From Tubulanus polymorphus (lineage: Eukaryota > Nemertea > Palaeonemertea > Tubulaniformes > Tubulanidae), in NCBI RefSeq assembly GCF_964204645.1, contig NC_134031.1, forward strand, positions 16,675,307 through 16,739,306: a stretch of 64,000 nucleotides of DNA, given 5' to 3'. The notes under the pieces were generated by a model that did no database searches, was not told the origin of the DNA, and worked only from the letters and a program-made list of their open reading frames with translations. A program made the position numbers and the translations under genes. Within the stretch, counting starts at the first letter, position 1. Each line of letters starts with the position of its first letter. Below are positions 2,083 to 36,923 of this stretch, in pieces.

Positions 2083-5000
2083 TTAAGTATTTATCATCCG
2101 ACGTCTCAACTGTTGTTTCGACGACGAGCCGCTCGGATACATAACTCGCGTCGTAATCAACGCCGATCCGAGCGCCGTGCGCACGGGAACGTTCGAACCG
2201 CCGGGTAACTGTAACATGACCGTGCCGACGGCGGCGATCCCGTCGTCGGTCGGCTCTAACGCGATCGGCGTCACGTGGAACGGCGATCGTTGCCGATTGG
2301 TCGGATCGGTGTGTTCCGTTTGGGAATGATAGTGGTATAGACTATGCGAGTAGCGGCTGCCGTTCGGAATTTTCGGCAGGCAAATCTTGCGCGGCAACGT
2401 CGGCGAGCTCTGCGGCGTTGGCATGTCGTCCATGAGCACGAGTATTCGCGCGAACGGCCGCGAGGCCATGTTCTCCATTTCCTGCTCGCGGCGTTGACGA
2501 TTGCGGCGTTCGTCGAAGCCCTGTTTGATTTTCCAGAACAACACGCACAGATCGAGAAACAGGAAGAAACAACTGAAGAACACCGAGAAAAACACGAACA
2601 AGTCGATATGCGGCTGATCCTGGCGAAAGAACAAATTGCCGTAGCTTTCGGAACTCGGCGTCATCAACGACTGATCGTCGCCGAGAAATACCTCGAATTC
2701 CTGATTGGGCATCGATTGTTTCGCGAACAAAACGATATAAAAACGCGACTGACGCAAATTATGCACCTTCAGCGGTAAAGTTATAACCAAACGAAATTGC
2801 ACGTCGTTCACGATGAGCAACGAGTTCGCGTCTTCGACGGTGATGAATGTCGTCAAACCCTGCGCTTTATTAATGTTTAATATCGGTCGCGAACTGTTGT
2901 TGAGCGCCGCGCGCTTCGAGCGACGTTTCTTGACGACTTTCATTTTGTGTCGCGCGCACGTCAAACGACAGCTGCTGCTGCTCGGCGCCCAATCGACGAT
3001 GTACATCGGGTCGATGCAGACGCAATGGCCGCCGGATTGTTCGTCGACCAGTACGACGAACGTGTCCTCGTGCGGAGAGAAGAACACGTCGACGGCTGAA
3101 ATATCGATAAATCATTTGACTTATTATCATTTATTTATTAGAATTAATTAATTATTCGATACCTTGGAAAAAATGAAGAATATTTTAGGATAAGCTTGTG
3201 GCAATTGATTTCAGCATATACAGGGCTGCCAACCTCTGAAAAGTGCTATCAGTAACTAATTGAATTTTTTTGGTAAAATTTCGTTGAAATATGAAAGAAA
3301 ATGTTCAAATTAATCAGTAATCAACAGTAAGACCCTCAATTACATCTTTCAAATTTTTCTAAGCATCTAAAAAAACCAATCAGTATTTTTCATTATAGAA
3401 AAGTAACTTATACTGAAAATCCAGAACAGTTGGCAGCTTTGCATATACCGGGTTTGTATACACTTCAAAAGAGTTGAAATAATCAATTTCAAACAGTGGA
3501 GTCTGAAATAGAGCCAACTTCAGAGCCTTATCGAAACAAGAAGATTTATAAGTTGATCAATGATAATAATTTTACCTCCTTTAGAAACGTCGATCGTGAT
3601 TCGAATATCAACGTTTAGATATTTGGGCTGCACGACGAAGAAGACCGTACGATGTAACGACAGAGGAGACGGTTCACGCCCGCAGTCCCGCTGCGTTAAC
3701 GGGTCGAAACAATAGTCTCTATCTACGTTCACTTGTCGGTAACACTGGTGACCGTCGGTCGGCTTGCCGAAAAAGTATTCCTTACAATCCGAGCACTAAA
3801 ACGAAACAGCGAGCAATTCTTACAGTTAGACATTCAACTGGGGCAAAATCCAAGATAAGTCGTAGTTTGTAAACTGTGTAGGAAATACCAGCAATATTTG
3901 AAGTTTATTAACAAAAATTTGTTAAATCAACGTTTTGGGTGGAATGCTTCTACTAATCTTCATTTCGATCTCCAGTTTCACGAAAAACTTAAATTTTTGC
4001 TTTTAATTGGTTACTTCACATTTTCAATGCCAGCATAAATTCAAACGTAACCATTTTAAGCTTAAAATATGTAGAGAATCCCACAATAATATAATATGAA
4101 GTCCGAAAATGTTTCCTGAATATTAGATTCAAGGAAACATATTCAGAATTTTATCTTTTCGTTATTATTGTAGATTCTGTACATCATCATCACAACACGG
4201 ACATCATAGCGTTTTATCAATGGTTATTCATGAAACCCAAGTCTGGATGGGAAGATGGGTAGAAGCATTCTTCTTGAAATTATTCGTGATCAATCTTCAA
4301 TATTGTGTGAATGTTTTATACGTTTATATTCAACTGGGGAAGTTTTATGTGAAGCCGACGAACCTGTTGTTTCTGACAGGGAATACTGCTATCTTTACCA
4401 GTTCCGCATCTTGTTTCGGTGTTGTTCTTACAGCGACAATCCAAACCGTCCTTTTCGTTGCATTCGTTACTGTGACCATTGCACTCACATCTGAAAAACA
4501 TGTAGACTTTAGAATATGCCTTTTCAAAAAGGGTTCTGACATACGGATGAACTTTTTTCAATTCATCAAATCACAGGTCCCCAGAAAATCTTGCTTCATT
4601 TTCCTGAAATTCGGCCTCGAATCAAGTTAGTTAACTTGAGTGAAGCTTAAAGGCATATTTTGAACGAGAACTAACGAAAAGTACCGATGAGAGAATTTGT
4701 CAAATCTACGAACATAGTTTCCTCCAGAACCCCCTAAAAACCGGCATGAATGTTGAACAAAACTTACTTTCTACAAGCATCTGCAGTTTTAGAGTCGGAA
4801 GGCCTAAAATGTCCCCTTTCACAACTCTGACATCGATCTCCGATCGTATTATCTTTACAATTGACGCAAACGACTGAGTCTTCAGTGGCGCCATCTTTCA
4901 CCCATCTAGTCACCTAAAACGATATCGATATTCAAACAGGAGATCGTTAACGGCTTCGGCGAGGATTCGTATTCGACTCTAAATCAGTCGATTTACTTAC

Positions 5001-34236: not shown

Positions 34237-34560
34237 AAACCTCGGTCAACTCGGACAAAATCTTCAGGACAGTTTCTATACGCACGACGTTTCTTGGTCC
34301 GACCAGGGAAGTGTGATGAGATGGAATACGGACGCTTTTAATTGCCGGATGTAGGCTATTCAATTCAGCCCGTACATCAAAGGTTACCGCAACAGCAGTA
34401 AGCTACGCTTATCGAGTGTGTGTTACCAGCTGAACACCAGTCAACATCAACTTTGATTCGGTCGCAGAACAACCCGCAATAGTTTTAGCCCGATAAATGT
34501 TCTGCGATCGATACTACGCATGCGCACTGCAGTTCATTGAACCACGTGGAAGTGGCTGTG

Positions 34561-34567
34561 TATAAAC
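34561..34567 (+). promoter_or_regulatory. TATA-like box of the RAG1-N-like gene
   Basis: TATAAAC about 60 bp before a donor AAAAAG|GTATGT at 34628-34629, which would end a short non-coding first exon. The matching acceptor TTTTTAG is at 35005, 2 bp before the ATG. Confidence 0.4.
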
Positions 34568-34657
34568 ATATTTTTCTTTAGAAAATCGGTTGAAATTCAA
34601 CAATTTCTCGTAAAATTTGTCCAAAAAGGTATGTATTTTTATTCTTCTATATCTCCG

Positions 34658-34755
34658 AAACCCGGAATCGGAACATTAAGTGTTTATATTGTGATTAAAG
34701 TCTGTTTTTATGTGTTAAACATATGTTTTTGCCAGTTCGTTCCGATTCCGGGTTT
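34658..34755. repeat. 17-bp inverted repeat inside the transposon's 5' UTR intron
   Basis: AAACCCGGAATCGGAAC and its exact complement GTTCCGATTCCGGGTTT are about 64 bp apart. It looks like a small secondary insertion or a structural hairpin of the element. Confidence 0.6.
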
Positions 34756-34976
34756 AGCGTTATTTGGGCATTGAAGATGTCAAATATTTCGGCCCAGACT
34801 CGCGCAGCTTTCGTTTCTGACGTCATGTTGCTATGTTACGACACAGACATATACATGAAGTATGATCTTTAAAATGTGTATTTACTACATAATAATGTTA
34901 CTTAATAACGCTTACATTAGGCCTACAAATTATTGTCCCCCATATAAACCAAGTTGCCTAAATAGCATCAGCAATC

Positions 34977-35906
34977 TCATTTAATTAACCTTTTCTTGTT
35001 TTTAGTCATGGATCTTTGTCGATTGTGTGGAAAAAATGCGAAACCTCCGGATCGTCGTCCTATCGATAAAAATAATTTCAAAAGCCATGTGAAGGAGTTG
35101 TTCAACATTGATTTTGATGATGATACTGAACAGTACCCGATATATATCTGTAATATGTGTCGTGTCAAATTACAAAAATGGCGTAAGAACAAAAACGTTA
35201 AAAAAACTGTCCCTGTGACTATCACAACATGAAACTTTGCCCACATTTTATCCAAATCTTTCGCAGTGCTTATGTGAATGGCGGAACATAATGTATCTTG
35301 AATTTTTGTAAACCACTGGTTAATTCCAAGTCTGGACGGCGACGTATTTGTAGTCAAAATTTTATCGATCGATTTTCCATTATGTACTGCTGCCATTCCA
35401 TTTGAACTGAATTTAAATACTCGATGGTTAATCACTTCAGTCATAGCCTTTTCCAAATATATAGTGTTCCTGCGAAAATAATAATAATGATTATTATTTT
35501 AACATGTACTTATCTGGATTTTTTATATTATGTTTATATATTATTTTCTGTATTCGTTTATTATTTTATAACCTAAAAGGATTGTATTGATTATAAAAAT
35601 AAATGTAAAAAATACCTGTATGTGTGTTTTCTCGTGTTCAGATCGCAGTCTCTGGTCAGCTGAGCCTGAGAAGTACCTATATGAAAAAGAAAAGGAAAGA
35701 ATAAAGTGCCTGCAATTAGGTGGAAACTATTCCGATATTACATTGATTCAAAAGGAATAACACTCACTAGAATCGGCCGAATTAGTTGATCCTGATCCAG
35801 AGGATTCCCGTAATATTTCCGTATCGATCTGAACCAATTCGTCACTATCAAAGAATAGTTCGTCAAAATCGTCATCATTTATAATTTCGTTGACAACCGT
35901 TGCCAT
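34977..35906 (-). CDS. Unidentified three-exon gene inside the transposon, antisense to the RAG1-N-like gene
   Basis: Exons 35906-35768, 35616-35676 and 35469-34977 have GT..AG borders in consistent phase (139, 61 and 493 nt, total 231 codons). The start is ATG with an acidic N-terminus (MATVVNEIINDDDFDELFF, then Ser-rich), next QLTRDCDLNTRKHTYRNTIYLEKAMTEVI, then INQWFTKIQDTLCSA and DLDKMWAKFH. The last 85 codons are the exact antisense of the RAG1-N-like CDS and look like shadow sequence, so the real protein may end or splice near 35230. The family is not recognised. The open frames and splice signals suggest a real second gene of the element. Confidence 0.5.
35008..35232 (+). CDS. RAG1-N-terminal-like zinc-binding protein of the transposon
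   Basis: A 74-aa protein. It begins MDLCRLCGKN and has four zinc-ligand cysteines, C4, C7, C48 and C51 (CRLC and CNMC). In between are the RR, the helix FKSHVKELFNID, and a YPIYIC approach to the second pair. The pattern CRxCG..RR..(I/V)..(L/V)F.ID...D....P...C..C resembles the Cys-rich N-terminal region of vertebrate RAG1 (CRICG...RR...VFRIDV...CHNC). The ATG is 2 bp after an acceptor; a short non-coding exon probably precedes it. The C-terminal tail is basic (KLQKWRKNKNVKK). No catalytic core follows before the stop. Likely role: DNA or protein binding for an element; not demonstrated. Confidence 0.7.
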   Translation: MDLCRLCGKNAKPPDRRPIDKNNFKSHVKELFNIDFDDDTEQYPIYICNMCRVKLQKWRKNKNVKKTVPVTITT

Positions 35907-36000
35907 TTTAATACAGCGGAAAGAACCGATATCACGATTGATAAAACACTATATCCGTCTGAAGCGATGTAGAGAGAATCGCACAATGATAACGAAAAAG

Positions 36001-36330
36001 TCCAAAAATGTTAGTAGTTTATTCAACGTTTCGTCTATGTCCTAATAGTCATCTTCAGAAATAATGAATACTACAGAAATTATGAGAGATATATACAATC
36101 CAGAGACAAAGAGACTAATTCAAGTAATCAGAGATGATACAAACTAAAGGAAAATTAACGTAGAAACAGTTACACGCTAAAACAGATTAAAGAGAAGCAG
36201 TTAAGAGACAGACTAGGGGGCACTTAAATTTAAGACAATTGTGAATACAAGTTGATCGACTAAAATTGATGAGGGGAAATCAGGTGTTGAGTTTAACCAG
36301 TTTACAGAGGAATTTTTATATAAGTTTATT
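36001..36330 (-). repeat. Retroelement-like fragment with a hammerhead-like end
   Basis: On the minus strand CTGAAGATGACTAT, a short loop, ATAGACGAAACGTTG and AATAAAC occur in that order near 36070-36030. This resembles the hammerhead-bearing ends of Penelope-like elements. The rest of the interval is AT-rich and non-coding. It lies within the 34304-36524 transposon, so it is either part of it or a nested insertion. Confidence 0.35.
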
Positions 36331-36622
36331 ATGGGATGAAAAACCGATATTCGGAAACAACTGAATTATTACGGAGATTCCCGATCTCGCTGGTTATCGC
36401 TTATCGGCGCGTTACGTAACAAAGCGCTCGCCGACGAACCGTTATCGGCTTTAGGGCAATTACAACGCACATTCGACAAGAGCTGCACAATAGCGTCCGT
36501 ATTCCATCTCATCACACTTCCCTGGTCCGACTAAGTCCGAGTTGGCCGAGGTTTTCTGTATGGTATAAATTCCTTCTAAAGAAACAACAGGTATTTGAGG
36601 TCGGAGGAACTATCTAAAGAGG

Positions 36623-36785: not shown

Positions 36786-36881
36786 TTTTGGTACAGTCCC
36801 GAACCACCATCCTGAAAAACTAGACGATCTTGCAAAAATGGAGAACTCGCCATGATTGCCACGGAAATTGATTAGAAGGAT

Positions 36882-36916
36882 CAGGGAAGTGTGATGTGAC
36901 TCATCACACTTCCCTG
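36882..36916. mobile_element. 35-bp micro-element: two fused ends of the RAG1-N-like transposon
   Basis: CAGGGAAGTGTGATG, five spacer bases, then CATCACACTTCCCTG. The two halves equal the termini of the element at 34304-36524. The 7-bp word GAAGGAT flanks it directly on both sides (36875-36881 and 36917-36923), a target duplication of the same length as for the large copy. It is therefore a genuine insertion of a near-minimal element or the product of a deep internal deletion. Confidence 0.85.
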
Positions 36917-36923
36917 GAAGGAT

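Follow-up and report, generated by a model that had tools for sequence, protein, structure and literature searches.

A probable P-superfamily transposon with a RAG1-N/ZAD-like zinc module in place of THAP in Tubulanus polymorphus

The window analyzed here, 64,000 nucleotides of contig C7, contains a 2221-bp element that very probably derives from a cut-and-paste transposon of the P superfamily and is non-autonomous and recently mobile (Table 1). Its plus-strand protein of 74 amino acids, which reads with the cysteines C4, C7, C48 and C51 as listed in the first-pass annotation, is the truncated N-terminus of a transposase and not an independent protein. That annotation had described an element made of a RAG1-N protein alone, which did not hold: the element is an internally deleted P element, and the cysteine module is the N-terminus of the P transposase.

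Table 1. Features of the element and its surroundings, in window coordinates
Feature	Position	Strand	Basis or remark
Very probable non-autonomous P-superfamily DNA transposon (internal-deletion derivative), 2221 bp	34304..36524	+	TIRs, TSD, at least 11 near-identical copies
Left TSD, GTCCGAC	34297..34303	.	Sequence read directly
Right TSD, GTCCGAC	36525..36531	.	Sequence read directly
Left TIR, 33 bp, CAGGGAAGTGTGATGAGATGGAATACGGACGCT	34304..34336	+	Perfect inverted repeat of right end
Right TIR, 33 bp	36492..36524	-	Perfect inverted repeat of left end
Candidate 5'-UTR intron (GTATGT ... TTTTTAG)	34629..35005	+	Splice signals kept in long copies
Truncated transposase N-terminus, 72 residues + TT + stop	35008..35232	+	C-x2-C..C-x2-C RAG1-N/ZAD-like module
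Deletion junction	35224..35225	.	About 3.6 kb missing relative to long copies (L031 1109-4712)
5' part of gene 2 exon 2, truncated	35225..35469	-	93% identity over 85 aa to 336-aa product; acceptor CGCAG
Gene 2 exon 1 (MATVVNEIINDDDFDELFF...)	35768..35906	-	Open in window and in L032/L033
TIR-TIR palindrome, TSDs GAAGGAT (36875-36881, 36917-36923)	36882..36916	.	Putative excision scar left by a different copy of this transposon type

Ends, target duplication and copies

The sharp ends first annotated for this transposon are borne out by its terminal inverted repeats (TIRs), its target site duplication (TSD) and its further copies in the genome. The TIRs are perfect, as had been reported, although they measure 33 bp and not 32 bp, and the reported 7-bp duplication is present on both flanks. 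Absence of these ends and of the TSD from other copies had been named beforehand as the sign of a mistaken call; the ends are present there, and so, in nearly all copies examined, is the TSD. In the 268-Mb genome searched (G000), at least 11 other copies match the window element over all or nearly all of its length, two of them at 100%, while some 27 others, each of about 2.1 kb, represent a different deletion class. The TIR pattern occurs 58 + 58 times and a reversed control pattern 0 times, which, together with the near full-length copies, argues that the window element is not a product of chance.

Nine well-aligned 2221-bp copies differ from one another by 0-25 bases (L010 and L011 were misaligned and are left out of this count), and the window copy is identical in sequence to a copy on contig C3, so the family has moved recently. 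Perfect 7-bp TSDs are found in 30 of 32 tabulated rows, equivalent to 29 of 31 distinct insertions, and comparison of the insertion sites gives a palindromic target preference near TTR-GTTNAAY-YAA.

Several further repeats were observed in and around the family. A 20-bp inverted repeat (34237-34256 and 36535-36554) lies outside the TSDs of the window element, which places the insertion within a palindrome or repeat older than itself. Within the candidate 5' intron there is a perfect 17-bp inverted repeat (34658-34674 and 34739-34755), possibly an internal transposase-binding repeat. Elsewhere, a 181-bp MITE is built of the same ends with the TSD GTAATTC (L034, C5:14489728-14489908), and ends paired at this spacing recur at C5:14525260-14525440.

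Parental copies and their transposase

The first reading found no DDE core, which is correct for the window copy, where it is deleted, but not for the family, as the P-type transposase core (PF21787/21788/21789) is present in long copies. Among the matches listed for the proposed search with the termini are three copies of 5.5-5.9 kb with the whole transposase gene, each of them lesioned. The paired ends enclose 5,910, 5,910 and 5,511 bp (L031 on contig C6, L032 on C8 and L033 on C4, respectively), and these copies share both ends and the deletion flanks with the window element. In L031 the plus-strand transposase exons run from 892-2682, 2770-2931, 3018-3206, 3293-~3427 and ~3514-3819 with good splice signals, and the product matches PF21787 (RNase H, 2.4e-26), PF12017 (5.8e-4), PF21788 (2.2e-4) and PF21789 (1.7e-4). 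In the PDB its best and only relative is the P transposase of Drosophila (6p5a, 3.3e-7), in the alignment to which FDEMKV falls on residue D230 and VSDGAT on D303; both of these catalytic aspartates are conserved. The QDPLEEHF region, matched by PF21789 in a part of the protein outside the 6p5a alignment, may hold the equivalent of the third catalytic acidic residue, E531.

The lesions differ among the long copies: a stop in transposase exon 4 of L031, a 1-bp deletion in exon 1 of L032 and a 5-bp deletion in exon 3 of L033. With all three lesioned, no intact source of transposase is found among the TIR matches listed, nor was a fourth copy of the transposase body found in the genome at high identity. 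Neither the transposase nor gene 2, the second gene described below, has relatives in the viral contigs searched. L031 (C6:18193703-18199612) is a long copy without a TSD, 4 of its 7 flanking bases being different, and is perhaps a recombinant of two copies.

At the deletion junction, 35224/35225, the sequence reads ACTATCA/CAACATGA and is translated as T-T-stop, so that the stop codon was created by the deletion. An independent RAG1-N gene is ruled out by this junction. Lost with the missing segment are the greater part of the transposase and the 3' portion of gene 2, and in the window copy the protein is cut short before any zinc motif beyond the first C2..C2 pair. Upstream of the protein, the candidate splice donor AG/GTATGT (34628/34629) and acceptor TTTTTAG/TC (35005/35006) are both kept in the long copies. 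Truncated transposases of a comparable kind are known from Drosophila as the KP products.

The zinc module

The THAP domain is absent from the N-terminus of four divergent P families of this genome, which instead carry a C2..C2 module before the P transposase. These are family A, to which the window element belongs, B (L039, L048, L049, L054), C (L050, L052) and D (L058, L062). The family C module finds that of family A at ~1e-8, which shows the modules to be homologous. Frameshifts occur in the module region of families C and D, so that the module there is read across two frames. From sequence comparison we take the module, with moderate confidence, to be a C2..C2 zinc domain that is intermediate between ZAD and RAG1-N and, at the family level, closer to RAG1-N, since RAG1 tops the profile search and yet zf-AD matches the window protein.

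It is possible, though we find it doubtful, that the module is a plain ZAD captured by the P transposase, its likeness to RAG1 reflecting a general treble-clef C2C2 pattern. In favor of a plain ZAD, the window protein matches Pfam zf-AD (PF07776) at 1.6e-7 with 31.9 bits, above the gathering cut-off of 28, and shares its C2..C2 spacing, and all 36 zf-AD matches in the genome belong to the transposon family of the window. L031 matches at 5.7e-6, while the cut-off is reached neither by families B and C nor by the L031 exon taken whole. PF12560 (RAG1_imp_bd) does not match the window protein, nor anything in the genome in a search where no positive control rang, and genome matches to the RAG1 N-terminal protein were swamped by RING. 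A single-sequence AlphaFold model of the 74 residues is too weak for use (pLDDT 57.5), and a fold search with this low-confidence model gave the ZAD of Pita (7pok) as the best match at a non-significant E=0.84. The first-pass annotation had itself stated that a better match to ZAD would count against its RAG1-N-like cysteine module; for the window protein alone ZAD does match better, while at the family level the likeness to RAG1-N stands.

Against a plain ZAD, a profile of the A-D modules searched against 177,635 PDB sequences ranks the RAG1 N-terminal domain 21wb first (E=1.2e-5), where full-length RAG1 scores 0.19 and the top-ranked ZAD 0.41. An unmerged profile, built from A, B and C only and cut before any frame change, still places RAG1 first at 0.0015 and returns no ZAD, and a profile that includes RAG1 raises ZADs only to 0.09. 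The module HMM scores RAG1 at 29.6-31.8 bits compared to ~1 +/- 2.4 for shuffles with fixed cysteines, an excess of 12-13 SD, where the ZAD 1PZW reaches 2.7; the identity of the human RAG1 stretch used was confirmed by PF12560 at 1.6e-90. In families C and D only, and read across two frames, a further W/H..C-x2-C motif lines up with RAG1; ZAD has no such part. The module also differs from ZAD proteins in that it lacks a C2H2 array and is fused to a P transposase.

With the RAG1 N-terminal domain and the Chapa domain of Chapaev and TransibSU, the module shares the pattern C-x2-C ... I-D-(V/F)-x2-D-x3-(H/Y)-P-x3-C-x2-C and, in families C and D, a candidate later C-x2-C. It differs from them in its position on a P transposase rather than a Transib/RAG1 core, in a shorter insert between the C-x2-C pairs and in having no RING.

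A second, convergent gene

A fragment of a second gene on the minus strand of the window element was absent from the first-pass annotation. Gene 2 is convergent to the transposase, on the opposite strand, and its main exon encodes 336 amino acids. Relatives of gene 2 adjoin families A, B, C, D, E and F. A THAP-type P element coexists in the genome (L044, C7:12739985), and no relative of gene 2 was found near it.

Neither a relative in the PDB nor a kelch domain was found for the gene 2 product. In family E the gene (L069:1325-1612) starts with a C2H2 finger (PF00096, 2.2e-6), while in one C-type element it starts with a PHD-like finger (PF00628, 9.4e-4, below the cut-off). Two near-identical C-type P elements whose gene 2 has the PHD-like finger are found at L118-L122 (C2:12842800-12849000 and C2:13927000-13931800). 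An origin of gene 2 as a split-off C-terminal domain of P transposase has one weak match to its credit (PF12596, E=0.045), which was not repeated in the other gene 2 members examined.

Excision scars

A TIR-TIR palindrome lies 357 bp downstream of the window element, and 64 palindromes of the form CAGGGAAGTGTGATG-N(0-30)-CATCACACTTCCCTG are present in the genome, compared to 0 for the control. Perfect 7-bp TSDs flank 37 of the 41 palindromes examined, that of the window included. All 41 keep 15-19 nt per TIR with short fillers between, where the upper bound of 19 nt is the informative one, since the search pattern already required at least 15 nt per TIR. P transposase reportedly leaves a 17-nt 3' extension (PMC10983969), and the palindromes fit P-type excision scars in which about 17 nt of each TIR is kept.

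The weaker rival is that these 31-38-bp palindromes are minute transposing MITEs, which we consider improbable. The TSDs flank them as they would inserted elements, and a 181-bp MITE does exist in the family; however, the palindrome interiors vary from site to site through the short fillers, and the retained TIR length clusters as predicted by end joining of staggered P-type cuts (PMC10983969). At one site a scar adjoins a full 2221-bp copy with GTCAAAC flanking both (L110 and L005, C8:4799044-4801306), as if a new element had landed in an old duplication.

Discussion

The element is placed in the P superfamily on the strength of its P-type transposase core, despite the 7-bp TSD and the lack of THAP. 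A tree of the RNase H region places families A-F and L060 on one side and the THAP-type L044 with Drosophila P on the other (99/98); E, F and L060 lie in the clade of A-D with N-termini that were not recovered, the module being seen in A-D. As in Drosophila P and zebrafish Pdre2/THAP9, the RNase H domain has a GTP-binding insertion and matches at D230 and D303, the ends are CA..TG, the scars fit a 17-nt staggered excision and there are KP-like internally deleted copies. Unlike in Drosophila P and zebrafish Pdre2, the TSD is 7 bp instead of 8 bp; the RAG1-N/ZAD-like module stands in for THAP, and a convergent gene is added. The freely accessible literature that was searched contains no account of a P element bearing a ZAD or RAG1-N module.

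The parent is an element of about 5.9 kb, whose transposase consists of the N-terminal C2..C2 module followed by P-type HTH, RNase H and GTP-binding-insertion domains, with the second, convergent protein encoded on the other strand. In the window copy a 3.6-kb deletion spared both ends, the promoter and candidate 5' intron, the zinc module and the first part of gene 2. The module may replace THAP as the site-specific DNA-binding part. That the element is non-autonomous and mobilized in trans, as first proposed, is supported by this analysis; the movement itself we infer, with a full-length family transposase whose cuts would fall about 17 nt inside the 5' ends. If it is made, the product of 74 amino acids may be a repressor of the KP kind, as it retains the module and loses the catalytic core.

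N-RAG-TP of Aplysia is a transposable element of RAG1-N-like sequence only and has been taken as the donor of the RAG1 N-terminus (PMC8355894). By its description, it resembles the short copies here, which encode the RAG1-N-like module alone, and differs from them in that the short form here is demonstrably a deleted P element. That our element is a true relative of N-RAG-TP, from which P-transposase copies captured the module secondarily, is very improbable: the module is RAG1-N-like and the majority of copies encode it alone, but the junction shows the short form to derive from the long one, and the fusion of module and P transposase, found in divergent families, must be older than the short copies.

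The element had been thought to bear on how the RAG1 N-terminus joined a Transib-type core; that bearing has changed, as the module is found on a P-type core. Because it fronts a P-type transposase, at the usual place of THAP, a RAG1-like module appears from these comparisons to occur outside the RAG1/Transib lineage. With RAGL (RAG1L-RAG2L) transposons the family has in common the two convergent genes, the RAG1-N-like module and, for a single P family, an accessory protein with a PHD-like finger. It differs from RAGL in its P-type catalytic core, in a TSD of 7 bp rather than 5 bp and in that no kelch protein was seen; no RAG1 core was found anywhere in the genome (PF12940 best 15.8 bits, below the cut-off, in a search where no positive control rang).

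Tentatively, the RAG1-N module could be an exchangeable DNA-binding module across the P clade with gene 2; N-RAG-TP might then be a deleted P element, and the RAG1/Transib and P lineages might share the module or have exchanged it. According to Kapitonov and Koonin, the Chapa and RING domains are found among known transposable elements only in the Transib/Chapaev group (PMC4411706), and the module, if a relative of Chapa, would be an exception to this rule for Chapa. The palindromes of this one assembly, if scars, indicate that excision in a P lineage without THAP leaves ends of the Drosophila P kind. For the origin of the N-terminal part of RAG1, a P clade whose transposases carry a module of this RAG1-N-like kind would enlarge the set of possible donors, and comparison of module and core would make the question of the donor testable.
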